A DNA stretch of 33,768 nucleotides, from IMG/VR virus record IMGVR_UViG_3300046000_008886, positions 1-33,768 of that record. One strand, 5' to 3'. Numbering within the stretch: position 1 is the first letter of the stretch; the number at the start of each line of letters is the position of its first letter. Made by a program: the position numbers and the translations under genes. Shown here one piece after another: positions 61-30,492 of the stretch. Below the pieces are notes generated by a model. The model was not told the origin of the DNA. It was given only the letters and a program-made list of their open reading frames with translations, and made no database searches. This stretch comes from a virus.

Positions 61-84
61 CAATCCTCTTATGATCGATTTTGT

Positions 85-155
85 GGAGCTACACGGTAAT
101 GCTCCGTGTTCTATGATTTGCAAAACCATTGTAATTGCTTTTATACGATAGCCCC
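85..155 (-). tRNA. tRNA-Ala(TGC) with non-canonical T-loop
   Basis: The acceptor stem is GGGGCTA/TAGCTCC and the discriminator is A. The anticodon arm is ATGGT-TTTGCAA-ATCAT with anticodon TGC. The T-stem CACGG/CCGTG is perfect, but the loop is AGCATTA instead of TTCRANN. The D-arm GTAT...TTAC has the loop AAAAGCA, so positions 18-19 read AG rather than GG. Everything except the elbow is orthodox. No CCA is encoded. Confidence 0.88.
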
Positions 156-161
156 GATTGT

Positions 162-232
162 ACTGCCACGGAGAATCGAACTCCGATTTTATGGATGAAA
201 ACCATAGGTCCTGACCGTTAGACGATGGCAGC
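162..232 (-). tRNA. tRNA-Glu(TTC)
   Basis: The acceptor is GCTGCCA/TGGCAGT. The T-stem CGGAG/CTCCG carries the canonical loop TTCGATT. The anticodon arm TATGG-TTTTCAT-CCATA gives TTC, and the D-loop contains GG. No CCA is encoded. This is a normal tRNA directly next to the aberrant tRNA-Ala, a useful internal control. Confidence 0.95.
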
Positions 233-411
233 AAGTAAAATACTCATTATCGGATACTATTATTCACCGAGCACTGTATACTGTTTTCACGCTTTAATTT
301 AGTCCTTTAGATTCTCCAGTGTTGTGTGGTCGGAGGCTTTACGCTAAAATCCAATCGGCAGGTCTCTTCTGCAGTTATCTTGTGTATTCCCTATACAAGG
401 AGTATTTTAGA
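233..411 (-). other. Unassigned structured spacer between tRNA-Glu and tRNA-Gly
   Basis: This 179-nt stretch holds no ORF. It contains a hairpin (CTTGT...ACAAG, about 384-404), a 4-bp stem with a 7-nt loop (GCAG/CTGC, about 359-373), and the sequence AGCGTAA (minus strand, about 339-345), identical to the odd T-loop of tRNA-Met and tRNA-Val. The flanking bases do not make a good T-stem. A degenerate or non-standard tRNA is possible; I could not build a cloverleaf. Confidence 0.3.
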
Positions 412-482
412 GCGACTAGACAGAATCGAACTGTCATCTTCTGGTTGGAAGCCAAAAGTAATAACCATTATACGATAGTCGC
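412..482 (-). tRNA. tRNA-Gly(TCC)
   Basis: The acceptor is GCGACTA/TAGTCGC and the discriminator is T, normal for bacterial tRNA-Gly. The anticodon arm is TTTGG-CTTCCAA-CCAGA. The T-arm is GACAG-TTCGATT-CTGTC. The D-loop contains the canonical GG. All features are canonical. Confidence 0.95.
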
Positions 483-503
483 AGTTTGAGGTTGAGTTCC
501 TCT

Positions 504-564
504 GTGTTGTGCACGGGAAAATTCTAATGCAATTCATCTCATTCCTTTCTCACGGGAACAACAC
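504..564 (-). other. 61-nt element closed by a perfect 7-bp stem (tRNA-like spacer)
   Basis: GTGTTGT and ACAACAC form a flush 7-bp stem like an acceptor stem. Only 47 nt lie inside, and I see no T-arm or anticodon arm with a 7-nt loop. An 8-nt direct repeat (CACGGGAA) lies just inside both ends. A 4-bp hairpin (488-502) follows it on the minus strand. It lies between tRNA-Gly and tRNA-Thr with almost no spacer. Function unknown. Confidence 0.4.
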
Positions 565-569
565 TTTGA

Positions 570-642
570 GGTTCTTGTCAGGATCGAACTGACTCTATTC
601 AGCGTTACAAATGCTGTGCACCACCACTTATGCGTAAGAACC
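570..642 (-). tRNA. tRNA-Thr(TGT)
   Basis: The acceptor is GGTTCTT/AAGAACC. The anticodon arm CAGCA-TTTGTAA-CGCTG gives TGT, with one A-C mismatch next to the loop. The T-arm GTCAG-TTCGATC-CTGAC is canonical and the D-loop contains GG. Confidence 0.92.
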
Positions 643-648
643 AAATAA

Positions 649-716
649 ATTAGAGTCGGTTTTCGTATCCGTTCTGCAGGTTAGCCCCTGCTGCTTTACT
701 ATAAGCTAACTCTAAT
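649..716 (-). other. tRNA-like RNA without a standard anticodon loop
   Basis: The acceptor ATTAGAG/CTCTAAT is perfect. A D-like arm GCTT...AAGC follows. The middle arm is GCAGG/CCTGC with a 6-nt loop GGCTAA that has no T33. The T-arm loop reads TACGAAA, one base from canonical, on a stem with mismatches at its ends. The total is 68 nt. It looks like a tRNA remnant or a tRNA-like RNA that does not decode. Confidence 0.45.
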
Positions 717-723
717 TCTTAGT

Positions 724-796
724 TGTAGGCGACTAGTACTCCAGTCCTTCTGTCCAATTAAGGAACTCATATCCGGTAACCCGGTCCTACTATTGT
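724..796 (-). other. Unassigned structured spacer before tRNA-Leu(TAG)
   Basis: The segment is tRNA-sized. It contains a GTAGG/CCTAC pairing near its ends, a CCGG-GTTA-CCGG hairpin, a TCCTT...AAGGA pairing, and a GACTG/TAGTC stem with a 6-nt loop. The arms are spaced roughly as in a cloverleaf, but I could not define a convincing anticodon loop. Confidence 0.3.
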
Positions 797-875
797 ACCC
801 AAGGAGAGACTCGAACTCTCAAGCTTACGCCACGGCTTCTAAGACCGCTGTGTCTACCAATTCCACCACTCGGGC
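797..875 (-). tRNA. tRNA-Leu(TAG)
   Basis: This is a class II tRNA. The acceptor GCCCGAG/CTTGGGT has GU pairs. The anticodon loop CTTAGAA gives TAG. A long variable arm precedes the T-arm GAGAG-TTCGAGT-CTCTC. The D-arm (GTGGTGGAATTGG) is typical of bacterial tRNA-Leu. Confidence 0.94.
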
Positions 876-975
876 AATTTACCGCATGTGCGGTCACTTA
901 TCAATCGGTAGCTCCCTCTCGATGTCCATTGATTGGTGTAAAATCGTTGGTAGAGGGTCGAACCTTAAATATCTT
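876..975 (-). other. Spacer with nested inverted repeats
   Basis: There is no gene here. ACCGCA/TGCGGT (890-903) makes a tight hairpin. ATCAAT pairs with ATTGAT around 902-935. CCCTCT (about 913-918) pairs with AGAGGG (about 951-956). The arrangement is RNA-like but matches no cloverleaf I could draw. Confidence 0.3.
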
Positions 976-977
976 TC

Positions 978-997
978 TTATACTTAAATATACGAAC
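978..997 (-). promoter_or_regulatory. GTTCGTATATT-type promoter-like motif upstream of a tRNA group
   Basis: On the minus strand the block reads GTTCGTATATTT followed by a TATAA-like box. It is nearly identical to the copies at 1276-1295 and 4365-4384. It lies upstream of the tRNA-Leu/Thr/Gly/Glu/Ala group, so it may start their transcript. Promoter function is inferred from recurrence only. Confidence 0.55.
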
Positions 998-1039
998 TAT
1001 ATTTCTAATATCCAAGCTTTTTTTAATTTATTTTTAATC

Positions 1040-1111
1040 TTAATTGTCATCATTTATTTTAATTCCGAAGAACACAAAGACTATCGCTACACATATAAAA
1101 CTTGCTATCAT
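1040..1111 (-). CDS. Possible 23-aa membrane micropeptide
   Basis: An ATG-initiated frame of 23 codons encodes a strongly hydrophobic stretch (IASFICVAIVFVFF) followed by a charged tail GIKINDDN, as in a single-pass membrane peptide. It lies between tRNA-Cys and the promoter-like motif at 978-997. The leader is A-rich. It resembles no family I know. Its shortness means chance is a real alternative. Confidence 0.3.
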   Translation of the reverse strand: MIASFICVAIVFVFFGIKINDDN

Positions 1112-1130
1112 AGTTAATTTACTTTTTTGA

Positions 1131-1201
1131 GGTCCTCCAGAGAATCGAACTCTGAATCTCACATTTTGCAGACATGAAGCTTAACCATCAGCCTGAGGAC
1201 C
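1131..1201 (-). tRNA. tRNA-Cys(GCA)
   Basis: The acceptor GGTCCTC/GAGGACC is perfect. The anticodon arm CATGT-CTGCAAA-ATGTG gives GCA. The T-arm is CAGAG-TTCGATT-CTCTG and the D-loop contains GG. Fully canonical. Confidence 0.95.
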
Positions 1202-1205
1202 ATTT

Positions 1206-1265
1206 TCACCTAGCCTGACCTGCCAGACAGTACGTGTCGTCGATCGTGCGTTACGTAGTAGGTGA
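1206..1265 (-). other. 60-nt element closed by a perfect 7-bp stem (tRNA-like)
   Basis: TCACCTA pairs with TAGGTGA. Immediately before the 3' strand, GTCTG-GCAGGT-CAGGC forms a T-arm-like hairpin with a 6-nt loop. Only 30 nt remain for the other arms, and no anticodon loop with T33 and a purine at 37 is visible. It lies directly downstream of the promoter-like motif at 1276-1295 and upstream of tRNA-Cys. Confidence 0.4.
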
Positions 1266-1275
1266 TGTTTCTTTC

Positions 1276-1295
1276 TTATACTTAAATATACGAAC
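1276..1295 (-). promoter_or_regulatory. GTTCGTATATT-type promoter-like motif upstream of tRNA-Cys
   Basis: This is the same 20-nt block as at 978-997. It lies between the stop of the HNH gene (1323) and the 60-nt tRNA-like element, the expected place for a new transcription start. Confidence 0.55.
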
Positions 1296-1322
1296 TTTAT
1301 TCTATTCTAGCAACTTTTTTTA

Positions 1323-1829
1323 CTAGAAAAATAAAAATGTTTCCCATTCTTTTGGAATATACTCCAATTGCTTCATCAGCATTAAGTAGTGAGGTCTTTT
1401 TGGTTCAGGTATTTCTTTTCCATATTCCTCAAGAGTTAAATCTGCTTTAGCCCCATTACAGCTTCTACATGCTGTTACTAAATTATCCCAAGCATTTGCT
1501 CCACCTTTTGATTGTGGAATAACGTGGTCAAGTGTTAGTGACTTTATATGGCTGTTACCGCAATAAACACATTCATAATTATCTCTTCGATAAACATTCT
1601 CTCTTGTTAGAGGAACTTTTTGAATGTTTTGTTTTACGTATTTAAACACTCTTATGATTGAAGGTTTAAATATTTCTAGTTGTGGATTTACTAATCCGAA
1701 TGTTTCTGGATGTTCAGCTATTATTTCTGCATTACCCTTATATGAAATCACGAAAGCTCTTTCTGTAGAGATAATGCTTCTTGCCATAAAGCTTGAATCG
1801 ATTACCAGTGTTCTTTGGTACTTACTCAT
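1323..1829 (-). CDS. HNH endonuclease family protein
   Basis: The 168-aa protein has a complete HNH core at residues about 90-135: CVYCG (zinc pair one), LDHVIPQSKGG (catalytic His), and WDNLVTACRSCN (Asn, zinc pair two). The N-terminal 85 residues are those seen in free-standing HNH proteins of bacteria and phages. Genes of this type may be mobile endonucleases, though no target scar is visible. It interrupts the tRNA array, with tRNA-Trp just upstream and a promoter-like motif just downstream. Nuclease activity is known for the family; the biological role here is unknown. Confidence 0.85.
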   Translation of the reverse strand: MSKYQRTLVIDSSFMARSIISTERAFVISYKGNAEIIAEHPETFGLVNPQLEIFKPSIIRVFKYVKQNIQKVPLTRENVYRRDNYECVYCGNSHIKSLTLDHVIPQSKGGANAWDNLVTACRSCNGAKADLTLEEYGKEIPEPKRPHYLMLMKQLEYIPKEWETFLFF

Positions 1830-1863
1830 GATTTTAATTTTTAATGAAACAATTTATTTTAGC

Positions 1864-1933
1864 ACGCCAGGAGGGAGTCGAACCCTCATCGTCGGTTTTG
1901 GAGACCGGTATGCTACCATTGCACCACTGACGC
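1864..1933 (-). tRNA. tRNA-Trp(CCA)
   Basis: The acceptor is GCGTCAG/CTGGCGT. The anticodon loop CTCCAAA gives CCA, on a stem with a mismatch at the outer pair. The T-arm GAGGG-TTCGACT-CCCTC is canonical. Confidence 0.92.
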
Positions 1934-2027
1934 ATTTGCAGAGTATCGCTTACTCTACCAAAGTTGATCAGACTTCTTTAATAGCTCTTTTGAAATAATC
2001 ATCTGTCTATCCATGCGATTTTTTTGT
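1934..2027 (-). other. Unassigned structured spacer with a T-arm-like hairpin
   Basis: AGAGTA and TACTCT (1940-1956) form a 6-bp stem with the loop AGCGA. Upstream on the minus strand, GAAGT-CTGATCA-ACTTT is a 5-bp stem with a 7-nt loop reading GAT at the anticodon position but with C at 37. These could be the T and anticodon arms of a further odd tRNA. I found no matching acceptor stem. Confidence 0.3.
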
Positions 2028-2098
2028 ACCCCATCCAGGAATCGAACCTAGAATTAATCTTTAGAAGAGATTTGTTATATCCGTTTAACTAATAGGGC
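2028..2098 (-). tRNA. tRNA-Arg(TCT)
   Basis: The acceptor GCCCTAT/ATGGGGT has GU pairs. The anticodon arm AATCT-CTTCTAA-AGATT gives TCT. The T-arm is CTAGG-TTCGATT-CCTGG and the D-loop contains GG. Confidence 0.93.
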
Positions 2099-2104
2099 AG
2101 TTGA

Positions 2105-2175
2105 GGTCTTAAAAGGGATCGAACCTTTGTTCTATCGTTCGTAGCGATAAGTTTTTCCAATTAAACTATAAGACC
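2105..2175 (-). tRNA. tRNA-Arg(ACG)
   Basis: The acceptor is GGTCTTA/TAAGACC. The anticodon arm TATCG-CTACGAA-CGATA gives ACG, which needs A34-to-inosine editing to read CGN. The T-arm is AAAGG-TTCGATC-CCTTT. Confidence 0.93.
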
Positions 2176-2181
2176 AGTTGT

Positions 2182-2259
2182 ACTCCGAAAGGGAGTCGAA
2201 CCCTCACGCATAAGCGTCACCGTTTAAAGATGATGTGTCTACCGTTCCACCACCGGAGT
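2182..2259 (-). tRNA. tRNA-Leu(TAA)
   Basis: This is a class II tRNA. The acceptor is ACTCCGG/TCGGAGT. The anticodon arm TCATC-TTTAAAC-GGTGA gives TAA. The variable arm has a stem ACGC..GCGT. The T-arm is GAGGG-TTCGACT-CCCTT. Confidence 0.92.
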
Positions 2260-2264
2260 ATAAA

Positions 2265-2283
2265 GCCAATCCCGTAGATTGGC
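2265..2283 (-). other. Perfect 7-bp hairpin in the tRNA array
   Basis: GCCAATC and GATTGGC pair perfectly around a 5-nt loop. No T-run follows on the minus strand, so it is not a typical terminator. It may be a processing or structural element between tRNA-His and tRNA-Leu(TAA). The rest of 2284-2354 also holds a CTCCC/GGGAG hairpin and no gene. Confidence 0.45.
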
Positions 2284-2355
2284 AGCTCAACTTTAGGCAT
2301 CGAGTTTGCAAGAACTAGTCTCTGGCCAGGTCAATCTCCCTTTGGGAGTTGTCGG

Positions 2356-2426
2356 GTGTAAGGACGGTACCGCCCCGTCTTCTCAAGATCCACAGTCTTG
2401 CACTTCACTAAAAAGCTTCGAACACC
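2356..2426 (-). tRNA. tRNA-His(GTG) with non-canonical T-loop
   Basis: The anticodon arm CAAGA-CTGTGGA-TCTTG gives GTG. The acceptor GTGTTCG/CTTACAC has two mismatches, and an extra 5' G (2426) opposite a C discriminator (2355) fits the G-1:C73 identity pair of tRNA-His. The T-stem GACGG/CCGTC is perfect, with loop GGCGGTA. The D-arm GCTT-TTTAGTG-AAGT has AG where GG is usual. Confidence 0.82.
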
Positions 2427-2435
2427 ATATAAAAA

Positions 2436-2511
2436 CTAAATAGAGATTCTCGATAGGTGATGAGATGGGCTAACCAACCTCCACATGGGTACTTATCCCC
2501 ATTCTATTTAG
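2436..2511 (-). other. 76-nt element closed by a perfect 8-bp stem (tRNA-like)
   Basis: CTAAATAG and CTATTTAG enclose 60 nt. Inside, ATGGG-GATAAGTA-CCCAT is placed exactly like a D-arm. The remaining sequence gives a short GGTT-GGTT-AGCC hairpin and TCTC/GAGA pairing. There is no 7-nt anticodon loop with T33. It lies between tRNA-Met and tRNA-His. Confidence 0.4.
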
Positions 2512-2518
2512 CTTTAGT

Positions 2519-2585
2519 ACCAATTCCAGGTTACGCTCCTGGCTGAAAATACTTATGAGATATTTTCGATCCTAGATCAATTGGT
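2519..2585 (-). tRNA. tRNA-Met(CAT) with non-canonical T-loop and short D-arm
   Basis: The acceptor ACCAATT/AATTGGT is perfect and the discriminator is A. The anticodon arm AATAT-CTCATAA-GTATT gives CAT (elongator Met, or Ile if C34 becomes lysidine). The T-stem CCAGG/CCTGG carries the loop AGCGTAA. The D region is only 14 nt (GATCTAGGATCGAA), so the whole tRNA is 67 nt. Confidence 0.85.
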
Positions 2586-2726
2586 AGTTTGATAAGAACC
2601 CGGATAACTTATCGTTGTGCTTATAATTTTAAAGTGTCTTACCACAGGGCTCCGAATGCACATTCTACTCCTGTACTCCTTAGGTACGTTGTGAGGACGG
2701 GGACCAGGTTTTTAAAAAAGTAATAC
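2586..2726 (-). other. Unassigned structured spacer
   Basis: GATAAG/CTTATC (2591-2613) is a hairpin with an 11-nt loop. GTAC-TCCTTAG-GTAC (2673-2687) is a stem with a 7-nt loop. No ORF and no complete cloverleaf were found. Confidence 0.3.
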
Positions 2727-2783
2727 GGGGATTCGATGGTAAGCCTATCCTACGTTACATATCCCCTACACCTATCTTACCAT
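2727..2783 (-). other. Possible H-type pseudoknot RNA in the tRNA array
   Basis: Two perfect stems interleave. ATGGTAAG (2736-2743) pairs with CTTACCAT (2776-2783, 8 bp), and GGGGAT (2727-2732) pairs with ATCCCC (2761-2766, 6 bp). Because each stem encloses one strand of the other, they must form either a pseudoknot or two alternative hairpins. There is no ORF and no tRNA arm pattern. Confidence 0.45.
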
Positions 2784-2823
2784 AGCAAGGCTGTCTTTTG
2801 TAACTCTGCATTATTACTTTTGC

Positions 2824-2908
2824 GGAGAGCAGAATACTCGAAATCCATCCATTTTACAGAACCACTCGCTTAGCAGGCGGTGACAATACCCTGATTGTTT
2901 TACTCTCC
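2824..2908 (-). tRNA. tRNA-Ser(GCT)
   Basis: This is a class II tRNA. The acceptor is GGAGAGT/GCTCTCC and the discriminator is G, as expected for Ser. The anticodon loop CTGCTAA gives GCT on a short stem (three good pairs). The T-loop TTCGAGT is canonical. A long variable region is present. Confidence 0.88.
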
Positions 2909-2916
2909 ATTTTTGT

Positions 2917-2987
2917 ACTCCTACAAGGAATTGAACCTTGATCTCATCCTTATCAGAGATGTGTGCTAACCATTCTACTATAGGAGC
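2917..2987 (-). tRNA. tRNA-Ile(GAT)
   Basis: The acceptor is GCTCCTA/TAGGAGT. The anticodon arm CATCT-CTGATAA-GGATG gives GAT. The T-arm CAAGG-TTCAATT-CCTTG is canonical and the D-loop contains GG. Confidence 0.94.
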
Positions 2988-2993
2988 AGTAGC

Positions 2994-3062
2994 GCCCGTA
3001 GCTGGAATCGAACCAACCTTGTTAATTACTTGTACTATGCTGTTACCCTTTTGCACCTAACT
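2994..3062 (-). pseudogene. Degenerate tRNA with canonical T-arm
   Basis: The T-arm GTTGG-TTCGATT-CCAGC and a following GC-rich strand (TACGGGC) look like a normal tRNA 3' half. No partner for that acceptor strand occurs upstream. At the anticodon position ATAGT-ACAAGTA-ATTAA has C33 and a mismatch. It is probably a decayed tRNA, or one whose 5' half is altered beyond recognition. The 5' end is approximate. Confidence 0.4.
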
Positions 3063-3212
3063 AGTATTTAGTGTGTAAAACCATATTACCATCATTAACC
3101 CACTCGATGTGTTCTCTGCGTATCCACAGCACATCTATACGAACATTTTAAACTACTGCCTGACTCTTTTCGAACGTATGAAGCTCGTATCATTCAATCT
3201 CAGTAATTTTGC
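3063..3212 (-). other. Spacer with a strong stem-loop (3106-3135)
   Basis: GATGTG/CACATC encloses CTGTG-GATA-CGCAG, a two-step hairpin of 30 nt with a 4-nt internal bulge. The rest shows no ORF, tRNA or repeat that I can assign. Confidence 0.35.
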
Positions 3213-3286
3213 TGATCTGACAGGACTCGAACCTGCTATCCTAGGTTTAACAAACCTCCGCTATATACCTCTTAAGCTTCAGATCA
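3213..3286 (-). tRNA. tRNA-Asn(GTT)
   Basis: The acceptor TGATCTG/CAGATCA is perfect. The anticodon loop TTGTTAA gives GTT. The T-arm GCAGG-TTCGAGT-CCTGT is canonical. Confidence 0.92.
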
Positions 3287-3293
3287 ATTTTGA

Positions 3294-3365
3294 GCCACAT
3301 AACAGGGATCGAACCTGTCTGCTAAATCTTGTCAAATACTCTCATCCTGTCGACCTTTCAGAGGC
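3294..3365 (-). pseudogene. Degenerate tRNA, possibly Val(GAC)
   Basis: The T-arm ACAGG-TTCGATC-CCTGT is canonical. An anticodon-like loop TTGACAA (T33, GAC, A37) lies at the right distance, but its stem has two mismatches. The best acceptor pairing (GCCTCTG/ATGTGGC) has only four of seven pairs. I read this as a decaying tRNA. Confidence 0.45.
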
Positions 3366-3469
3366 ATATTCTATTTAACCCTTTATGATTTTCCGCCCTA
3401 CGTCTAAGACAGTCCATGCATATCTGATTAAAAGATCCAGTCGTCACCATTGACTACGGACTTGTTTGT
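3366..3469 (-). other. Spacer with D-arm and anticodon-arm-like hairpins but no T-arm
   Basis: AGTC-AATGGTGAC-GACT resembles a D-arm with GG in the loop, and ATCT-TTTAATC-AGAT follows it. Flanking AGTCC/GGACT could close a short structure without a T-arm. No complete tRNA can be supported. Confidence 0.3.
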
Positions 3470-3541
3470 GGACCCTGCAGGAATCGAACCTACTCCTCTA
3501 GTTCTTCAGACTAGCGTACGCACCAGCTATACCAAAGGTCC
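3470..3541 (-). tRNA. tRNA-Phe(GAA)
   Basis: The acceptor is GGACCTT/AGGGTCC. The anticodon arm CTAGT-CTGAAGA-ACTAG gives GAA. The T-arm is GTAGG-TTCGATT-CCTGC and the D-loop contains GG. Confidence 0.95.
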
Positions 3542-3555
3542 AAGGTTAATACAGT

Positions 3556-3635
3556 GGGAAATTGTGGAATCGAACCACACCTTCTTACAGAACGATTTTA
3601 CAGACCGCTTACATCACCAGATGCTGAAACTTCCC
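3556..3635 (-). tRNA. tRNA-Tyr(GTA)
   Basis: This is a class II tRNA. The acceptor is GGGAAGT/ATTTCCC and the discriminator is A. The anticodon arm GCGGT-CTGTAAA-ATCGT gives GTA. The T-arm is TGTGG-TTCGATT-CCACA. Confidence 0.94.
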
Positions 3636-3639
3636 GATT

Positions 3640-3668
3640 ACACTTTCCATAGTTGGCTGTTTAAGTGT
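3640..3668 (-). other. Hairpin between tRNA-Tyr and the next tRNA
   Basis: ACACTT and AAGTGT pair (6 bp) around a 17-nt loop that itself can form CCA-ACTA-TGG. No T-run follows. It may help separate or process the flanking tRNAs. Confidence 0.35.
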
Positions 3669-3682
3669 GAAACCCTGTTCGC

Positions 3683-3754
3683 TCATTAACGGGACTTGAA
3701 CCCTACCTTCCGGGCTTTTCAAGGCCCAGTGTGCATCCGGTACACTTTTAATGA
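3683..3754 (-). tRNA. tRNA with 8-nt anticodon loop (TGA if read as Ser)
   Basis: The acceptor TCATTAA/TTAATGA is perfect. The D-arm GTGT-ACCGGATGC-ACAC contains GG and the T-loop TTCAAGT is canonical, on a stem with only three good pairs. The anticodon arm is TGGGC-CTTGAAAA-GCCCG: five pairs but an 8-nt loop. The anticodon could be TGA or, displaced by one, GAA. The variable loop is short, unlike a true tRNA-Ser, and a normal tRNA-Ser(TGA) exists at 4234. Confidence 0.65.
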
Positions 3755-3856
3755 AACTGCTACTTATTGTCCTCGGCAAAAGATGCTGTTCGCAGTATGG
3801 CTATGAACTTATATACGGAATTGCCGTACCGTATAAACTATCATCCCCATTTTTGT
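3755..3856 (-). other. Unassigned spacer with inverted repeats
   Basis: TATACGG (3812-3818) pairs with CCGTATA (3829-3835, 7 bp, 10-nt loop). ACTGC and GCAGT (about 3756-3796) pair at longer range. No gene or complete cloverleaf was found. Confidence 0.35.
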
Positions 3857-3926
3857 ACCTCGTGATGGTTACGCTCCACCGCCCTTTGCATGTAAAACAA
3901 ATACGCTCCTATTACGCCAACGAGGC
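3857..3926 (-). tRNA. tRNA-Val(TAC) with non-canonical T-loop
   Basis: The acceptor is GCCTCGT/ACGAGGT and the discriminator is A. The anticodon arm TTTGT-TTTACAT-GCAAA gives TAC. The T-stem GGTGG/CCATC has loop AGCGTAA. The D region (GCGTAATAGGAGC) pairs poorly. Confidence 0.87.
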
Positions 3927-3930
3927 AAAT

Positions 3931-3973
3931 CTAATTCTACGCTTCGAGTTCTTCGCGGTCTTCTATGAATTAG
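3931..3973 (-). other. 43-nt element closed by a perfect 7-bp stem
   Basis: CTAATTC and GAATTAG enclose 29 nt, in which CGC and GCG form a weak inner stem. It lies directly between tRNA-Val and tRNA-Lys. It resembles the other acceptor-like closed elements at 504, 1206 and 2436. Confidence 0.35.
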
Positions 3974-3990
3974 TAACAGTCACTTCTCGT

Positions 3991-4060
3991 ACCCCTCCTA
4001 GGTACTGGCCCTAGTTCCCGATATTAAAAGTATCGTGCTTCACCTTAAAGCTTGAAGGGC
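3991..4060 (-). tRNA. tRNA-Lys(TTT) with non-canonical T-loop
   Basis: The acceptor is GCCCTTC/GAGGGGT. The anticodon arm CGATA-CTTTTAA-TATCG gives TTT. The T-stem CTAGG/CCTAG is perfect and the loop is GCCAGTA. The D-arm GCTT-TAAGGTG-AAGC keeps GG, unlike the other odd tRNAs, which matches C (not G) at position 55. Confidence 0.88.
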
Positions 4061-4067
4061 AATTTGT

Positions 4068-4137
4068 CTAATAGGCAGGATTCGAACCTGCGTACTCCTC
4101 AGTCCAAGTGAGGCATGTGACCTAGCTTCGCTACTAG
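4068..4137 (-). tRNA. tRNA-Pro(TGG)
   Basis: The acceptor is CTAGTAG/CTATTAG. The anticodon arm CCTCA-CTTGGAC-TGAGG gives TGG. The T-arm is GCAGG-TTCGAAT-CCTGC. Canonical. Confidence 0.95.
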
Positions 4138-4150
4138 CAATTTAATTTGT

Positions 4151-4220
4151 TGCCCATGAAGGTAACGCTCCTTCTCCGCATGTGTCAAAGACATGTGTAC
4201 TACTTTTATACGAACGGGCA
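4151..4220 (-). tRNA. tRNA-Gln(TTG) with non-canonical T-loop
   Basis: The acceptor is TGCCCGT/ATGGGCA and the discriminator is A. The anticodon arm CATGT-CTTTGAC-ACATG gives TTG. The T-stem GAAGG/CCTTC has loop AGCGTTA. The D-arm GTAT-AAAAGTA-GTAC has AG in place of GG and closely resembles that of tRNA-Ala. Confidence 0.9.
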
Positions 4221-4233
4221 AATTGTCTGCAGA

Positions 4234-4320
4234 AGAGAGGATGGGATTCGAACCCATGGACCTTTTAAGGGATCTCTAGTTTTCAAGACTAGCGCAATAG
4301 GCCAACTCTGCCACCTCTCC
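4234..4320 (-). tRNA. tRNA-Ser(TGA)
   Basis: This is a class II tRNA. The acceptor is GGAGAGG/CCTCTCT. The anticodon arm CTAGT-CTTGAAA-ACTAG gives TGA. A long variable arm (GATCCCTTAAAAGGTC) is present. The T-arm is ATGGG-TTCGAAT-CCCAT. It is the first tRNA downstream of the promoter-like motif at 4365-4384. Confidence 0.95.
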
Positions 4321-4364
4321 GTTTAATTTTATCCAATATGTCAATGAACTCTTATTCTTATTTC

Positions 4365-4384
4365 TTATACCTAAATATACGATC
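4365..4384 (-). promoter_or_regulatory. Promoter-like motif upstream of the main tRNA array
   Basis: On the minus strand it reads GATCGTATATTTA followed by a TATAA-like box, one of the near-identical blocks at 978 and 1276. It lies between a terminator (4425-4456) and tRNA-Ser(TGA), so it probably drives the long tRNA transcript. Confidence 0.6.
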
Positions 4385-4424
4385 TTTATTTCTTTCTAGC
4401 AACTTTTTTTTAATTTATTTTAAT

Positions 4425-4456
4425 AAAAAACCCGAATCTTTTTTTTGATCCGGGTT
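4425..4456 (-). terminator. Rho-independent-type terminator
   Basis: On the minus strand AACCCGGATC pairs with GATTCGGGTT (10 bp with one GU) around an 8-A loop, followed by a run of six T. It lies at the end of the small transcription unit 4490-4662 and just before the tRNA promoter-like motif. Confidence 0.85.
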
Positions 4457-4489
4457 CTTATTAGAATTTATATGTATAATTTAATTATA

Positions 4490-4630
4490 TCATATCCCGG
4501 TTTTGGTTGTTTTCGGTTCGTTATTATACGTAAAGCCAACAATAATAACTCCACATAACGAATCCGACCATTGGCTAATGGCTCTTTCCGCTATCATATT
4601 TAGTTGATGTATGTTTTGTTGTGCTTTCAT
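4490..4630 (-). CDS. Small orphan protein, 46 aa
   Basis: An ATG frame of 46 codons ending in TGA lies directly between a promoter-like motif (4643-4662, 13 nt upstream) and a strong terminator (4425-4456), which argues for a real one-gene unit. The product begins MKAQQNIHQLNM and has a short hydrophobic segment (LCGVIIVGF, residues 25-33) before a lysine- and threonine-rich tail. No family recognised. The unit could also encode a non-coding RNA of about 200 nt. Confidence 0.5.
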   Translation of the reverse strand: MKAQQNIHQLNMIAERAISQWSDSLCGVIIVGFTYNNEPKTTKTGI

Positions 4631-4642
4631 TTTACTTTCTTT

Positions 4643-4662
4643 CTATATATAAATATACGAAC
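4643..4662 (-). promoter_or_regulatory. Promoter-like motif upstream of the 46-aa gene
   Basis: The minus strand reads GTTCGTATATTTATATATAG, matching the shared motif exactly over GTTCGTATATTTA. The start codon follows after a 12-nt leader. Confidence 0.6.
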
Positions 4663-4692
4663 TTTTTCTTTCCAAACCAACTATAAGTTGAT

Positions 4693-4884
4693 TTATTTTT
4701 TATCTACTTTATTTTTTATTCTTCCAATCAGTCCTGATTTCAAATTCTTGAAAGCAACTTTCATTGCTGCATTATCATCTGCAAGAATTGCATCTCCTAA
4801 ATCAGTCATTAATTGATCTACTGATTTTTCTTCTTTAAGAGTTACTGCCTCTTTTATAATCTTAACTAATTCTGATTTTTTCAT
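4693..4884 (-). CDS. Small hypothetical protein, 63 aa
   Basis: The protein is short, charged and predicted helical (MKKSELVKIIKEAV..., ending in a basic tail RIKNKVDKK), with no cysteine and no membrane segment. It has its own promoter-like motif immediately upstream (4896-4914) and an A-rich leader. Size and composition would suit a small nucleic-acid- or protein-binding phage factor, but no family is recognised and no function is claimed. Confidence 0.75.
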   Translation of the reverse strand: MKKSELVKIIKEAVTLKEEKSVDQLMTDLGDAILADDNAAMKVAFKNLKSGLIGRIKNKVDKK

Positions 4885-4895
4885 TGTTGTTATTA

Positions 4896-4914
4896 TTTAA
4901 TATAAATATACGAG
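4896..4914 (-). promoter_or_regulatory. Promoter-like motif upstream of the 63-aa gene
   Basis: CTCGTATATTTATATTAAA on the minus strand is a variant of the GTTCGTATATT motif. The start codon lies about 12 nt downstream. Confidence 0.5.
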
Positions 4915-4929
4915 AATTTATTTTATGAC

Positions 4930-5270
4930 TACCGTTCTTTTTTGTTAATTTATCCTTTTAATATTTGTTTTGAACCTTGTTCTTTTGTAATCTTTGCCTC
5001 TAGTTTATCTAGTCTAGAATCTATTGTTGAGTAAACCTCATCTACTAATTGATTTACTCGATCAACTTCTTGATCAACTCTACGATTTATTACTTGATCG
5101 TTTGATGAGATCCATTCTTGATGTCTTGAGAATAATTGATCAATCTCTTTTAATTTTCCTACTGTCTTAAACGCTACCACAACTACCCATACAAAGGCAA
5201 CTGCACCAACACCTAAAGCAAACGCTAAAATTTGTTCCATAGTTTTGTTTTTTAAATTCAAAGAACGGTA
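4930..5270 (-). repeat. 11-bp inverted repeat flanking the 96-aa membrane protein gene
   Basis: TACCGTTCTTT (4930-4940) and AAAGAACGGTA (5260-5270) are perfect inverted copies on either side of the gene, both outside the coding sequence. In an mRNA they could pair the 5' and 3' untranslated regions. As DNA they could be a small cassette boundary or a paired protein site. Confidence 0.5.
4950..5240 (-). CDS. Single-pass membrane protein with coiled coil, 96 aa
   Basis: The ATG at 5240 is preferred over a TTG at 5261. The protein starts with a hydrophobic helix (LAFALGVGAVAFVWVVVVAF, residues about 5-24), followed by a charged coiled-coil region rich in Q, D, R and V (residues about 28-85). 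It is likely anchored in the inner membrane with a cytoplasmic or periplasmic coil. No family recognised. An 11-bp inverted repeat flanks the gene (4930-4940 and 5260-5270). Confidence 0.75.
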   Translation of the reverse strand: MEQILAFALGVGAVAFVWVVVVAFKTVGKLKEIDQLFSRHQEWISSNDQVINRRVDQEVDRVNQLVDEVYSTIDSRLDKLEAKITKEQGSKQILKG

Positions 5271-5284
5271 ATCTTAAAATTTGT

Positions 5285-5364
5285 AGTCAGGGCCGGACTC
5301 GAACCGGAGAAGCAACCTATATTTAAAGGATTCGGGACCAATCCCTCATTACGCCCACCTGACT
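5285..5364 (-). tRNA. tRNA-like RNA with canonical T-arm, anticodon undetermined
   Basis: The acceptor AGTCAGG/CCTGACT is perfect and the T-loop TTCGAGT sits on CCGG/CCGG. Between them, GGATT-GGTCCCG-AATCC is a perfect 5-bp stem with a 7-nt loop but G at position 33. An alternative AATC/GGTT stem has an 11-nt loop. The D region is short and the variable region long. No normal anticodon can be read. Confidence 0.55.
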
Positions 5365-5378
5365 GTTTTGCAATTGTG

Positions 5379-5519
5379 GTTGATTAGACCTCCGAAATAT
5401 GTTGCCTTCCGAGCCTATTTTCCGTAACGGCGAAAATAGATTTCAAAACCCGCTCTTGCCTCACGCCCAAGAGTATGTCGATGCCTTTCTAGCTAGGCAT
5501 AGCTGTCTGAGTAATCAAC
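5379..5519 (-). ncRNA. Putative structured RNA, about 141 nt
   Basis: The closing stem GTTGATTA/TAATCAAC is perfect (8 bp). Inside, three hairpins follow one another: ATGCCT/AGGCAT with an 8-nt loop, CTCTTG/CAAGAG with a 9-nt loop, and CTATTTTC/GAAAATAG with a 9-nt loop. A possible CTC/GAG pairing lies at the 3' side. There is no convincing ORF. Two tRNA-like genes flank it. It fits no RNA family that I can name. Confidence 0.5.
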
Positions 5520-5526
5520 TCATTGG

Positions 5527-5596
5527 AATTAGTAAGGGGGTCGAACCCTTATCCGAGCGGCTTTCGCTACCCATGTTACCATTACACCAACTAATT
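5527..5596 (-). tRNA. tRNA-like RNA lacking a normal anticodon loop
   Basis: The acceptor AATTAGT/ACTAATT is perfect. The D-arm GTGT-AATGGTA-ACAT contains GG, and the T-arm AAGGG-TTCGACC-CCCTT is canonical. The 17 nt at the anticodon arm cannot form 5 pairs with a 7-nt loop. They form AGCG-AAAGC-CGCT or a hairpin ending in GAAA. T33 is absent. The overall length is normal. Confidence 0.6.
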
Positions 5597-6606: not shown

Positions 6607-6882
6607 TTAAGCGTTATGTTCTGTTAATGCTTCTGTTCCTTTACTGTCATATCTCCCTTTGACTTTTTCTTTAGCTTCTAAGTATAAGTTTTCATCTACT
6701 TTTGTGTTATGAATCATAGCATCTTCATTTGGGAAAGGATATAGATCGACTTCTCTCATAAGCATTTCAATTACTCTTTCGTTTGGAGTTTCCCATTTCC
6801 AATCCCCATAAAACATTGCCTTAGCAAATAGTTTTACGATGGTTTCTAATTTTTGCTCTCTTGTCATACTTTCTTCGTTCAT
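6607..6882 (-). CDS. Hypothetical protein, 91 aa
   Basis: The protein is charged, soluble and predicted helical (MTREQKLETIVKLFAKAMFYGDW...), with several Glu/Lys stretches and no cysteine. Spacing of a few bases to both neighbours suggests one operon with the GIY-YIG gene upstream. No domain recognised. Confidence 0.7.
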   Translation of the reverse strand: MNEESMTREQKLETIVKLFAKAMFYGDWKWETPNERVIEMLMREVDLYPFPNEDAMIHNTKVDENLYLEAKEKVKGRYDSKGTEALTEHNA

Positions 6883-6885
6883 AAT

Positions 6886-7572
6886 TTATATTTTGTTTAC
6901 TTTATACCCTTTTAAATTTCCTCTTGAAATAGTCTGTTGATGTTTAGAGGCTAGCCGTATTCCGTTAGGTGTTACTCCGTACTTCTTTGCTATACTCTCT
7001 GCTCCAATACTCTGCATTATTATATTTCCGACTGGATCTATTAGTTGAAATTCACTGTAGTATCCATTCTCTAGTTTTCTCTGTGTTACTTTTTTATGCT
7101 GATCTTCTTTTTCCTCTTTTGTTTTTAGAGATAATCCTCTTTTAACAGCACTTTTATGATTTTCTATATTAGAAAGTAATGTTATTCTTTGCCTATCTTG
7201 TCGAGCTTTAACTTCCTCTGGGTGATCTGCTAAATACTGTTTGTAACTTTTTGATGCTTTCTGTCTTACTTTCTGTCTTTCTTCTTCTGAGAAGTATCTA
7301 ATAGTATACCCTCCCTCTCCTCCTGGAGCTATATTGTAACATTTTGGGTCGGTTAGATTTTCCTTTATAATTTTCTTCTCCCAGGTATTAACTTCTTCTT
7401 CTGTCGAACAGATAACTATGACTTCTTTTTCAAAATTAACTCTTCCATATTTTTCTATGGCCTGCTTCAAAATTATTCCAGAACCTAAATATTTATCGTC
7501 TATCTCTCCTTTATGCTTTCCTATATAATACTTTCCGTTAATGAGATTTGTTGTAATGTAAATATAATGCAT
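6886..7572 (-). CDS. GIY-YIG endonuclease, probably a free-standing homing endonuclease
   Basis: In this 228-aa protein the N-terminal 90 residues form a GIY-YIG nuclease domain: YIY at residues 3-5, YYIG at about 15-18, a GSG/K segment near 31-38, a glutamate-rich region, and the family ending YNIAPGGEGG. A basic linker follows, then a C-terminal helix-turn-helix-like segment (AKKYGVTPNGIRLASK, about 190-205) typical of phage Seg/Mob-type endonucleases. Known members nick or cut DNA and spread themselves between phage genomes. An 11-bp hairpin containing the late motif covers its translation start. Confidence 0.88.
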   Translation of the reverse strand: MHYIYITTNLINGKYYIGKHKGEIDDKYLGSGIILKQAIEKYGRVNFEKEVIVICSTEEEVNTWEKKIIKENLTDPKCYNIAPGGEGGYTIRYFSEEERQKVRQKASKSYKQYLADHPEEVKARQDRQRITLLSNIENHKSAVKRGLSLKTKEEKEDQHKKVTQRKLENGYYSEFQLIDPVGNIIMQSIGAESIAKKYGVTPNGIRLASKHQQTISRGNLKGYKVNKI

Positions 7573-7609
7573 GGTAGTTCCTTTATTATAAATAGTTCGG
7601 AACTACCAT
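7570..7609 (-). promoter_or_regulatory. Hairpin overlapping the start codon of the GIY-YIG gene, with late-type motif in its loop
   Basis: ATGGTAGTTCC (7599-7609 read on minus) pairs with GGAACTACCAT (7571-7581), an 11-bp perfect stem whose last bases are part of the ATG start codon. The loop contains TATTTATAATAAA, the motif seen before late genes. Read-through mRNA would hide the start; mRNA begun inside the loop would not. Confidence 0.65.
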
Positions 7610-7625
7610 TCCATTAGGTACTACT

Positions 7626-8465
7626 CTATTTCTTTTCTTCTAGAAAGTCTTTTTCAATCTGCAAGGCATGAGCTTTAGCTACTTCCCAACTCACTAATCC
7701 TGTTTCGTCTTCATATTGTACTGGATCTGCAACTCCTAATTTAATAAAAGCTAAAACTCTTTCTACACTTGAAGCTGATTTATAATCACTATTTCCTGAG
7801 GGATATGGTTTGTAGGAGGTGTTAGTTCTTGAATAGACTTCATTAAAATCTAATCCTAATTCTCTACATAGTGTTTCTCCGTCTTGTAAGATAGTAAATT
7901 TATCCCCTTCTAAATATGGAGTAAAGAATCCTACACGTTCTGAGTCCCAGTTTCCAATTCTAAAAGCTAAGTCATCAGCATCTCTGAATTCCTGTCTACA
8001 GTCCGGGTAAATTTCGTGATCTCCAGAATGGATTCCTAAAGCAATATCACAATTTTCTTTTGTCCTATTTGCAACTGATAAAGCTACTGCTTGAGTAATT
8101 GAAGCAAATATTTTGTTCCTATTAGGTACAACTGTTGCTTTTTGGTTGTCTTCTGCATAGTGACCTTCTGGTACATCTTCACCTCCTGTTACTAAAGCTG
8201 AATCTAATAGGTCTGCTAATCCGTTTAATTGGATTTGACGATACTTAATAGGATTAGGTAAAGTATCGAGTGAGAACATCTCTTGAATTCCATTAATGTA
8301 ATCTACCAATGCTTGAGCTCTCTCTAACTCTACTCTGTGTTTTTGACCATAGTCAAATGAAATAGCTGTTACACTATCATACTCTTTTAGACATCTAAGT
8401 AATAATGTACTTGAGTCCATCCCGCCGCTAAGGCTAACAACTACATGTCGTTTTGTTTTTTTCAT
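7626..8465 (-). CDS. queC: QueC-like 7-cyano-7-deazaguanine synthase lacking the zinc cysteines
   Basis: QueC converts 7-carboxy-7-deazaguanine to preQ0 with ATP and ammonia. The 279-aa product has the PP-loop SLSGGMDSS (residues 11-19), FDYGQKH, VPNRNKIF and YPDCRQEF signatures of the family. In bacterial QueC four C-terminal cysteines bind zinc. Here the matching segment (about 216-235, TSYKPYPSGNSDYKSASS) has none. Phages use preQ0-type bases to modify their DNA against restriction, so this gene may serve DNA modification. No folE, queD, queE or dpdA is in the window. Confidence 0.9.
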   Translation of the reverse strand: MKKTKRHVVVSLSGGMDSSTLLLRCLKEYDSVTAISFDYGQKHRVELERAQALVDYINGIQEMFSLDTLPNPIKYRQIQLNGLADLLDSALVTGGEDVPEGHYAEDNQKATVVPNRNKIFASITQAVALSVANRTKENCDIALGIHSGDHEIYPDCRQEFRDADDLAFRIGNWDSERVGFFTPYLEGDKFTILQDGETLCRELGLDFNEVYSRTNTSYKPYPSGNSDYKSASSVERVLAFIKLGVADPVQYEDETGLVSWEVAKAHALQIEKDFLEEKK

Positions 8466-16036: not shown

Positions 16037-16873
16037 TTAGTTAAATAAATCGTCAAATTTATTTACAGTGCTTTTGTTACCCTCTACAGCAGTCTCCAAA
16101 GTGAAGTCTGTTTTATTACTTCCTAAAGCTTTGTCTAAGTCAGTTGGAGCTGTAGTAACTGGTGCAATTGATTCAGCTGGAATGTTTGCTGGTGTTGCAA
16201 TTTCTTCTCCTGGGTTAAGATACTCTTGTAATTTTTTCTTAATGTATTCGTAGTCGTACTGAGTTTGTACTTCTAAAGCATTTGGTTGATCCTTCAACCA
16301 AGAGTTTACTTTACTATCATCATCTGATAATACTGTTTGTTTTGGTTTGATACGAACCGTGGTAGTTGGAAATTGACCTGGTCCTGCTGCTGGTGTATTT
16401 TCTACAACCATATCCCATCCGCTCATTACGTCTGTAAAATCTCCAATGTCTTCATCCTCTGCTAAAGCCAATAATGCTTTATAGATATTTACTCCGAATG
16501 ACCAAAGACGAACTCCTTTTTCTTCTTCTCCTCTTACTACAACAGGAGCAAAGAATCTTGATTTAGGAGATAATTTTCCTGATAATGACCAGTTGTCTTT
16601 GTCAGATGTTTTTCTTAATTCTTTTACGAATTCTTCGATTGGATCTTGTTTTCCGTAGTTTGAAAGGGATACCATAGGGAACTTTCCTATGTTGTAATGT
16701 AGTTTAACCTCTGTGAAAGGGTCTGCAGCGTTGAAGGCTGAAGGGACAATTCTAATGGTTGATTTTCCGTTTGCCGGTCTCCAATAAATCTTATCGAAAT
16801 CGACCTTCTCTCTGTCCTGGTTTCCACCACTGTTTAAACTTTCTAATTTTTGTCTAATCGCTTTTAAATCCAT
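16037..16873 (-). CDS. 32: Single-stranded DNA-binding protein, T4 gp32-like
   Basis: It coats single-stranded DNA during replication and recombination. In 278 aa the N-terminal LxxLxS-type arm (AIRQKLESLNSGG) is the cooperativity domain in gp32. KIYWRPANGKSTIRIVPS starts the OB-fold, and the acidic C-terminus (TVNKFDDLFN) is the protein-interaction tail. The cysteines that bind zinc in T4 gp32 are absent. The leader is A/T-rich with TTAAA repeats, and a pseudoknotted terminator lies about 90 nt upstream. Confidence 0.88.
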   Translation of the reverse strand: MDLKAIRQKLESLNSGGNQDREKVDFDKIYWRPANGKSTIRIVPSAFNAADPFTEVKLHYNIGKFPMVSLSNYGKQDPIEEFVKELRKTSDKDNWSLSGKLSPKSRFFAPVVVRGEEEKGVRLWSFGVNIYKALLALAEDEDIGDFTDVMSGWDMVVENTPAAGPGQFPTTTVRIKPKQTVLSDDDSKVNSWLKDQPNALEVQTQYDYEYIKKKLQEYLNPGEEIATPANIPAESIAPVTTAPTDLDKALGSNKTDFTLETAVEGNKSTVNKFDDLFN

Positions 16874-16927: not shown

Positions 16928-16957
16928 TTTTTTAATTTTCCAACCCTCTTTTTGCAT

Positions 16958-17014
16958 AAAAAAAGGAGAAATTAAAACAAACCCTCTGCGACAAGGTATT
17001 ATTTTAAAATCTCC
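16958..17014 (-). terminator. Terminator upstream of the SSB promoter, with pseudoknot potential
   Basis: On the minus strand GGAGATTTTAAAA pairs with TTTTAATTTCTCC (5 + 6 bp around a 2x2 internal loop), followed by seven T. Its 24-nt loop contains GTCGCAG, which is exactly complementary to CTGCGAC 20 nt upstream (17034-17040). It ends the unit holding the 151-aa gene and polymerase. Confidence 0.75.
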
Positions 17015-17079
17015 GTAATGTTTTTATAGAGTGGTCGCAGTACTCTTATTTAATATAAATAGCTTGTTTTTAGGTAAAC

Positions 17080-17535
17080 CTACACTTCCAGAATACGAAA
17101 AAGTTTAGTATTTACTCTTTTTAGTTCATTTCCTTTTGTTAATAGTATACAGTTTTGATAGTCGTTCCATTCCACTCTGAAGTTTGTATCTAATACTCCT
17201 CCGTTTAGAGATTCGATTAGACGATTTAGTGAATTGATTGTGTATAAGGTGTTTGATTCTTTTTTTCTATGCACTAAGATAGTGTTTTCTAAGAAATTAG
17301 AAACGTTTCCAAATTCTACGTTATAAGTACAAATATACTCATCTTGACTCTTTGAATAAAGAACGAAGATTTTATTATAAATGATCTTGTATTTTGTCTG
17401 TATTGTGCTTAGTATCTCGTCCAGTTGCTGTTCTGATGAGAAAGTGCAAAATAGTTTGTTTGACATGTCTGCGTGATTGTAATTATATTCGATGTCATAA
17501 TCGAACATGGTTGGCGCTACATTATTTTGTATCAT
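17080..17535 (-). CDS. Hypothetical protein, 151 aa
   Basis: This soluble protein, rich in Asn, Tyr and Lys, has a mixed alpha/beta pattern (TFSSEQQLDEILSTIQTKYKIIYNKIFVLYSK) and no membrane segment. It lies between the polymerase and SSB genes, so a replication role is possible but unsupported. A TATTTATAAATG block overlaps its start. No family recognised. Confidence 0.7.
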   Translation of the reverse strand: MIQNNVAPTMFDYDIEYNYNHADMSNKLFCTFSSEQQLDEILSTIQTKYKIIYNKIFVLYSKSQDEYICTYNVEFGNVSNFLENTILVHRKKESNTLYTINSLNRLIESLNGGVLDTNFRVEWNDYQNCILLTKGNELKRVNTKLFRILEV

Positions 17536-17554
17536 TTATAAATATGTTTTTATT

Positions 17555-28733: not shown

Positions 28734-28758
28734 AAAGCTTCTATTATCTAGAAGCTTT
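28734..28758 (-). other. 10-bp hairpin over the stop codon of the 98-aa gene
   Basis: AAAGCTTCTA and TAGAAGCTTT pair perfectly around 5 nt that include the TAA stop. Only three T follow before GCC, so termination would be weak. It may instead block ribosomes or stabilise the mRNA 3' end. Confidence 0.5.
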
Positions 28759-29040: not shown

Positions 29041-29713
29041 CTTCCGGGAAGAATCTTAAATCAACATCTGGCTGAATTTTATTTACATACTCTCTTAAGG
29101 CTCTTGAATCTCTAGCAAGTAAGAAGTTGTCAACAAAATCTCTAATTGTTTTAGGTTCTGGACTTCCTTCTACTGATGTAATCATTCTTTTTAACCTTGT
29201 TGTAAGTTCTGCTGAAGAGTCTTTATATATTTTTTTCAAACCTTTTATTTCTTGCTCTATTGCTTTTTCATCTCCGTGAGTTAAGATCTTAAAGGTAATA
29301 TTTGTATTTGTAGAAGGAGTAGTAAATGCAAATTCATTCTTTCCTTTCTCCAATAAGGAGTAGTCAATATCTTTATTTTTTATTTCTGAAAGATCTACTA
29401 TTTCTTTTTGTCCTTTATATTCAAATTCGTAATCCTTTCCGTATCCTAAAATACGAGAAGCAATTAATATTGCATTTTTGTCTCCTACTAATAGATCTCC
29501 GTAGTTGATTGAAGTTACGATAAGCGATTGTAGTAGTTTATCAATAACCACTCCTTGTTGAATGTAATTTTGATTAGTTAGGATATCTTCTTCACGAGCT
29601 GTCATGTATTTCATCTCGATTCTACCTTCTGCTAGTGCAGAATCTTTTGAGTAAAGTAATCCTTTTGACGGTAGTTCCACCATTTCGGTAGGAAATTTTT
29701 GCTTTTGTTCCAT
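28973..29713 (-). CDS. Baseplate hub assembly / tail chaperone protein (T4 gp26-like)
   Basis: In this 246-aa protein the opening FPTEMVELPSKGLLYSKDSALAEGRIEMKYMTAREEDILT is the well-known start of T4-like gp26 baseplate hub assembly proteins, with PSKG.LY and MTA-EED-L motifs. Soluble, acidic and helical. Position: after the tube genes and before the tape measure, overlapping the 98-aa gene. A late-type motif precedes it. Function is inferred from family and position. Confidence 0.82.
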   Translation of the reverse strand: MEQKQKFPTEMVELPSKGLLYSKDSALAEGRIEMKYMTAREEDILTNQNYIQQGVVIDKLLQSLIVTSINYGDLLVGDKNAILIASRILGYGKDYEFEYKGQKEIVDLSEIKNKDIDYSLLEKGKNEFAFTTPSTNTNITFKILTHGDEKAIEQEIKGLKKIYKDSSAELTTRLKRMITSVEGSPEPKTIRDFVDNFLLARDSRALREYVNKIQPDVDLRFFPEDGPDGGVDIPIGVTFLWPDAGV

Positions 29714-29739
29714 AAATTTTATTTGTTAGTAACTTTTTC

Positions 29740-29757
29740 TATATATAAATATATGAA
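29740..29757 (-). promoter_or_regulatory. Late-type motif upstream of the gp26-like gene
   Basis: The minus strand reads TCATATATTTATATATAG, intermediate between the two motif classes (TATATT plus TATTTATA). The ATG follows about 27 nt downstream. Confidence 0.5.
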
Positions 29758-29782
29758 GAAAACTTTTTTAAAACAACAAAGC

Positions 29783-30424
29783 CTACTCCCCTTTTCGAAT
29801 TAACCATCCTCTTAAAAATTTTCCTGGTGTTTTTGAGTTTAGTAATCTCTTTTGTAGGGTTGTCCACTTTATTCCTGTTGCCTTTGCTAAATCTGGGTAG
29901 CTTGTTTTTGTTATAACTTCCCCTGTTTCAAATTGAACTGTGTAAGGTCCTCCTGACCATTGCTTTCCTCCTCGTAGTCTTTCTGAAGTTTTTTTTGATA
30001 GGGATGCTCTACCTTCATCTGTCATGTCCGATTTCATCCCTTTAAATACTCTTGTAGAATTGTTTGTATTCCCTTTTAGTGCAATTGCTATTTTTTCTTT
30101 ATGAGAAATAGATTTACCACTTTGCCATAGCTCTTGTAAAATTCTCCTTGCTTCTCCATACTCTTCTTTTGTAAGTGTTCTCTTACCGTCAAAAGAAATT
30201 CTATGAAAAGCCCATAGCATTTTCTTACTATAAATCGAATGCCCTTTCCAATATTCTGCTAATATTTTATGAACTGTATAGTGTTCTTCAGGTGTCAGTA
30301 GTGCTGTTGTTGACTTCTTATTAAAGCTTTTAGGAATAATATGATGTGCCTCATAATAAGTCCCTTTACCTTTTTCTCTACCTTCTTGTAATACTTGTCT
30401 AATAATCTTAAAATACTGTTCCAT
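29783..30424 (-). CDS. HNH homing endonuclease inserted between tail genes
   Basis: In this 213-aa protein YYEAHHIIPKSF (about 23-34) and LTPEEHYTVHKIL (about 43-55) are the HNH core of phage Mob-type homing endonucleases. The middle is basic. The C-terminal part (ETGEVITKTSYPDLAKATGIKWTTLQKRL, about 167-195) is a DNA-binding repeat plus helix-turn-helix. It separates the tube gene from the gp26-like gene, a typical intergenic insertion. A 10-bp hairpin with the late motif in it precedes the gene. Confidence 0.87.
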   Translation of the reverse strand: MEQYFKIIRQVLQEGREKGKGTYYEAHHIIPKSFNKKSTTALLTPEEHYTVHKILAEYWKGHSIYSKKMLWAFHRISFDGKRTLTKEEYGEARRILQELWQSGKSISHKEKIAIALKGNTNNSTRVFKGMKSDMTDEGRASLSKKTSERLRGGKQWSGGPYTVQFETGEVITKTSYPDLAKATGIKWTTLQKRLLNSKTPGKFLRGWLIRKGE

Positions 30425-30458
30425 AAAAAATGCCTATTTACTTTATTATAAATAGGCA
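30425..30458 (-). terminator. Hairpin with T-run and embedded late motif before the HNH gene
   Basis: On the minus strand TGCCTATTTA pairs with TAAATAGGCA (10 bp, 8-nt loop), followed by six T and then the ATG. TATTTATAATAAA spans the 5' strand and the loop. It can act as terminator of the tube transcript, as a block on translation of the HNH gene, or as a late promoter. Confidence 0.65.
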
Positions 30459-30492
30459 TAAGTTTTAAAAAGTAGTAGTTAATTACACAACA

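Follow-up and report, generated by a model that had tools for sequence, protein, structure and literature searches.

In phage T4, the homing endonuclease genes I-TevI, I-TevII and I-TevIII are controlled by a hairpin combined with a late promoter (PMC2988022, PMC3014915). The same control is described for segB and for mobE of phage Aeh1; a first-pass annotation of the DNA treated here had named I-TevI and mobE as precedents, in agreement with the sources. I-TevI is a GIY-YIG enzyme, encoded in the td intron. In its read-through RNA a hairpin hides the initiation region (PMC2988022), including the Shine-Dalgarno sequence, and a T4-type late promoter, which overlaps the 5' arm, is positioned so that late RNA is without the 5' strand. 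The expected hairpin forms in the I-TevI upstream sequence, and its late promoter is an inexact TATAAATA. T4 segB and Aeh1 mobE are free-standing and belong to enterobacterial or Aeromonas phages; the Shine-Dalgarno sequence is masked and mobE is of the HNH type (PMC2988022, PMC3014915). In T4 genes e and soc the late promoter also lies inside the region for the 5' strand of the masking structure (gene e, PMC3014915), but these genes belong to the phage proper and do not encode selfish nucleases. Flavobacterium does not use Shine-Dalgarno sequences. There, initiation responds to structure at the start and to A at positions -3 and -6 (PMC6847099).

The window, i.e. the whole stretch of DNA analysed, is a virus record of 33,768 bases. 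The tail sheath shares 68% identity with its counterpart in Flavobacterium phage immuto (NC_055915), a myovirus whose gp20 and gp23 are T4-like. The phage is Immutovirus-like and T4-related, and the window covers a fragment of it. A dense tRNA gene array (14 by ARAGORN) occupies 84-5596 and contains a conserved HNH gene, 1323-1829, without a late motif. The locus under study comprises the following features.

6607..6882, minus strand: gene after the endonuclease, abutting the endonuclease stop codon
6886..7572, minus strand: free-standing GIY-YIG homing endonuclease, 228 aa (PF01541, phrog_314)
7571..7581, minus strand: 3' arm of the hairpin, GGAACTACCAT, taking in start codon bases 1-2
7582..7594, minus strand: late-promoter-like motif TATTTATAATAAA, in the hairpin loop
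7599..7609, minus strand: 5' arm of the hairpin, ATGGTAGTTCC; only read-through RNA would contain it
7626..8465, minus strand: queC (PF06508, E 2e-35), upstream gene; read-through RNA would come from here

Identity of the gene as GIY-YIG, proposed in the first-pass annotation, is confirmed by PF01541 (27.9 bits, curated cut-off 22.6) and by phrog_314 (E 6e-35). PDB sequence searches with this endonuclease and with the second one of the window, described below, gave no meaningful match. The gene comes after queC, as the last in a series of genes for replication and metabolism. In relatives without the endonuclease the queC stop abuts the next gene, as the endonuclease stop does in the window. 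Such a vacant site, queC stop and then directly the next gene (TAAAATTATG...), is present in L075, L077-L080, L085-L087 and others. By this comparison the GIY-YIG gene is an optional insert, vacant in many relatives.

The gene start lies in a perfect inverted repeat, 11/11 complementary, with arms at 7571-7581 and 7599-7609 and a 17 nt loop. The minus-strand ATG is at 7572-7570; the 3' arm ends at 7571 and thus covers A (7572) and T (7571). TATTTATAATAAA, at 7594-7582, is inside the loop. The 11-bp hairpin, the inclusion of the first two start codon bases in the stem and the late motif within the loop had all been reported from the letters of the sequence, and all are real. The accompanying proposal, that a read-through transcript folds and hides the start, agrees with the predictions in silico. 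Read-through RNA of the start folds at -22 kcal/mol (z = -4.1; equally stable shuffles 0/200). Opening of the start region is predicted to cost 14.8 kcal/mol in read-through RNA vs 0.7 in the predicted late RNA. With the part upstream of the motif shuffled, 14.8 kcal/mol was reached by 0/1000 shuffles (mean 3.8, maximum 12.4). No Shine-Dalgarno sequence is found upstream of the GIY-YIG gene; masked instead are the start codon and A-3/A-6. The predicted late leader is the 9-nt GGAACUACC, with A at -3 and -6 both present. The stem is invariant in both other copies of the gene (L001, L002), and the loop differs by one change; with three copies only and an invariant stem, there is no covariation at this site.

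The arrangement resembles that of I-TevI in the hairpin and in a putative promoter placed so that late RNA, from its predicted start, would be without the 5' strand. The window gene differs from I-TevI in being free-standing, without Shine-Dalgarno sequence, with the start codon itself in the stem and TATTTATA in the loop. The scheme itself is known. New here are the non-T4 late motif, the lack of a Shine-Dalgarno sequence and a start codon that is itself masked.

Of the 14 occurrences of TATTTATA in the window (5.05 +/- 2 expected), 13 are on the coding strand and one is on the opposite strand. Most are located 14-32 nt upstream of a gene, among them those for sheath, tube, hub and tape measure. 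In relatives, too, the motif precedes tail genes and is strand-biased. The consensus over 199 sites is (A/C)TATTTATA(A/T)(T/A)AAA. No partner hexamer is present upstream of the motif across the 199 sites, as for the T4-type late promoter. The T4 form TATAAATA is not the form here; the sense motif is TATTTATA(A/T)(T/A)AAA. By position the motif behaves like a late promoter, and its use as one is the probable reading. With T4-like spacing assumed, the predicted 5' end of late RNA falls near 7581, where the 3' arm begins. Coding-strand TATTTATA is absent between the motif at 17054, which belongs to a solo leader described below, and 7594, and the genes upstream of the GIY-YIG gene therefore look like a non-late unit. 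The motif at 17535-17544 stops 1 nt short of the first ATG in ORF 17080-17535, whose true start is therefore probably a later ATG, at codon 10. A 10-bp perfect hairpin at 28734-28758 immediately precedes the tape-measure gene's late motif and occupies a terminator-like position after the hub gene.

A second homing endonuclease gene of the window also begins at a hairpin.

29783..30424, minus strand: second homing endonuclease gene (phrog_655)
30430..30459, minus strand: second hairpin, ATGCCTATTTA / TAAATAGGCAT; 5' arm overlaps the late motif; six T follow

HNH profiles fall within other members of phrog_655. The second hairpin is kept in more than 20 contigs; over 13 distinct sequences, 143/143 base-pair cells pair, with 2 compensatory double changes. 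In the more distant L052 and L053 a different hairpin is present at this position. In the region 29700-30500 the gene sits inside the tail-tube terminator. Phage immuto has the terminator AAGCCTGATGAAAATCAGGCTTTGTTGTTTT after its tube gene; in the window just the 3' half of an immuto-type tube terminator remains, downstream of the second endonuclease. For this reason the second hairpin, which with its T run has the form of an intrinsic terminator (GC hairpin and T run), probably also replaces the tube terminator. The tube gene is a late gene, and the gate at the second endonuclease may thus provide insulation rather than timing.

Start masking was compared over about 1.7 Mb, made up of the window, phage immuto and 14 related virus records. 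The related records were chosen via queC or endonuclease searches. Homing endonucleases were labelled by PF01541 and phrog_655, blind to hairpins. Genes with a motif at most 45 nt from the start were scored by the excess of the start-opening energy in read-through RNA over that in late RNA, the latter being assumed to begin 6 nt after the motif. The median masking change is 6.8 kcal/mol for 21 homing endonucleases vs 1.5 for 291 others (P = 3e-9), and the nine highest of the 312 late-motif genes are all homing endonucleases. After clustering of proteins at 60%, 13 endonuclease and 178 other clusters remain (P = 1e-4); this level was used because 30% identity leaves just 3 endonuclease clusters (P = 6e-4). 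A masking change of at least 12 kcal/mol is reached by 4/13 endonuclease clusters vs 1/178 others. That lone cluster and several high-scoring others match HNH endonuclease profiles. HNH_3 and NUMOD4 profiles have almost no matches in the relatives, so that the labels partly missed HNH endonucleases and the test is conservative. Of the 13 endonuclease clusters with a motif close by, roughly half have little or no gate. The start-masking arrangement recurs at other homing endonucleases with unrelated stems: GGTAGTTCC in the window gene, GCCTATTTA in the second gene, TTAGCC...ATGGCTAA in G001 and G008, and CCATTGGGTAC in G003. This comparison supports the putative gating by read-through and late RNA. 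Long hairpins are also found at GIY-YIG genes of other phages (L018:4911-5040, L031:4911-5040); these carry the T4-type ATAAATA in the loop, and that of L018 has AGGAGG also in its 3' arm.

In the reading considered probable, the hairpin serves as a time gate on a selfish homing endonuclease gene, which stays silent in read-through RNA and is switched on late from the promoter in the loop. Read-through RNA from the replication and metabolism genes, queC included, would carry both arms. The stem would lock the start codon and the preceding bases, and the endonuclease would not be made from this RNA. Late in infection, RNA polymerase would start at the TATTTATA promoter in the loop. Late RNA from about 7581 would be without the 5' arm, its start region open behind a 9-nt leader. 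An open start with the A residues at -3 and -6 that Flavobacterium prefers would then allow the endonuclease to be made late.

A repeat of this length is not rare by itself: for perfect 11-bp repeats with a loop of 4-60 nt the expectation is 0.83 per shuffled window. Length is therefore no proof, and a long inverted repeat could arise by accident in an AT-rich phage. Such an accident is nevertheless highly improbable: only two such hairpins exist in the 33.8-kb window, exactly at the two homing endonuclease starts, and in each of them the late motif lies in or over the loop; to this are added the enrichment over other late genes and the covariation at the second site. An intrinsic terminator of queC RNA, after which the loop promoter merely restarts transcription (insulation, not timing), suits the second endonuclease, where T6 follows the hairpin and the terminator of the immuto tail tube is replaced. 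At the GIY-YIG gene this explanation is quite unlikely, as the T run is absent after 7571 and the sequence goes on GCATTATATT; a terminator was rejected there and retained for the second gene.

The inverted repeat might also be a DNA operator, with two GGTAGTTCC half-sites flanking the promoter; a protein bound there, either the endonuclease or some other, would repress the promoter. Of the three copies of GGTAGTTCC in the window, two form part of the GIY-YIG repeat; an additional imperfect copy, GTAGTACC, lies just upstream of the repeat, and autorepression of I-TevI at its own late promoter is documented (PMC2988022). An operator is judged unlikely, however. Stems at the same place in the group's other homing endonucleases are unrelated, which suits structure better than a shared operator; the sequence is absent from the queC/next-gene junctions inspected in relatives without the insert; and the 3' arm extends into the start codon. 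The late gate stands as the preferred reading of the GIY-YIG hairpin. It would extend a control scheme of T4-like phages of Enterobacteria and Aeromonas to hosts without Shine-Dalgarno use and to a different late promoter. Such an extension suggests that selfish nucleases acquire late gates repeatedly and would be made when many genome copies are available to cut and repair. The late-promoter motif is testable in a poorly studied phage genus.

Other homing endonucleases of these phages are preceded by a second kind of element, here termed class B leader. It is about 105-115 nt long and lies directly after the late motif. The 7-nt loop of a 5' hairpin pairs with the loop of a second hairpin within an outer stem; the outer stem is followed by T6-T8 and then by ATG. 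Two sequence groups are distinguished. In B1 (17 leaders) 408/408 cells are paired and 50 cells are changed on both sides; in B2 (33 leaders) 96.6% are paired and 96 cells are changed on both sides. Shuffled and slid controls gave far lower values. In the 1.7 Mb, covariance models detect 6 copies of B2 and 11 of B1. Examples are L169:8914-9018, L226:4791-4896, L225:7586-7699 and L177:14101-14214, with about 45 others. Rfam 15 gave no gathering-level match to class B leaders other than tRNA, and none credible at E<=5; in the window as a whole the Rfam scan gave nothing but tRNAs and chance matches. The Pistol ribozyme has a similar order of hairpin, loop pairing and outer stem; it has no Rfam support here and is not claimed. 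No description of the class B leader was found in open-licence papers. At many endonuclease genes there is thus a strongly covarying leader RNA without match in the RNA library searched (Rfam).

Readable genes downstream of class B leaders encode GIY-YIG, phrog_655 HNH, endonuclease VII-like and phrog_559 proteins. Exceptional in this respect are a few reading frames that are truncated or cut, together with two leaders that stand alone as solo copies, one in the window and one in L293.

16948..17061, minus strand: solo class B2 leader without endonuclease gene (120.5 bits, model R1)
16037..16873, minus strand: ssb gene (phrog_1192/224, single strand DNA binding protein), following the solo leader

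A 19-codon frame follows the solo leader. L293 has the same solo arrangement before ssb; immuto has no such leader at ssb. At a guess, class B is a late leader that might control termination or initiation via loop-loop pairing. One leader serves endonucleases of unrelated folds and may therefore be a modular riboregulator of mobile genes, able to stay behind and be used again, as at ssb. The chances are about even that two portable RNA devices, the start hairpin and the leader, both placed at a shared late promoter, serve Immutovirus-like phages as gates for their homing endonucleases. One contig, 3300032607_001425 (L222-L227), a phage fragment of 102 kb, is very rich in endonucleases and has 11 GIY-YIG or phrog_655 matches, and several of its endonucleases have class B leaders.
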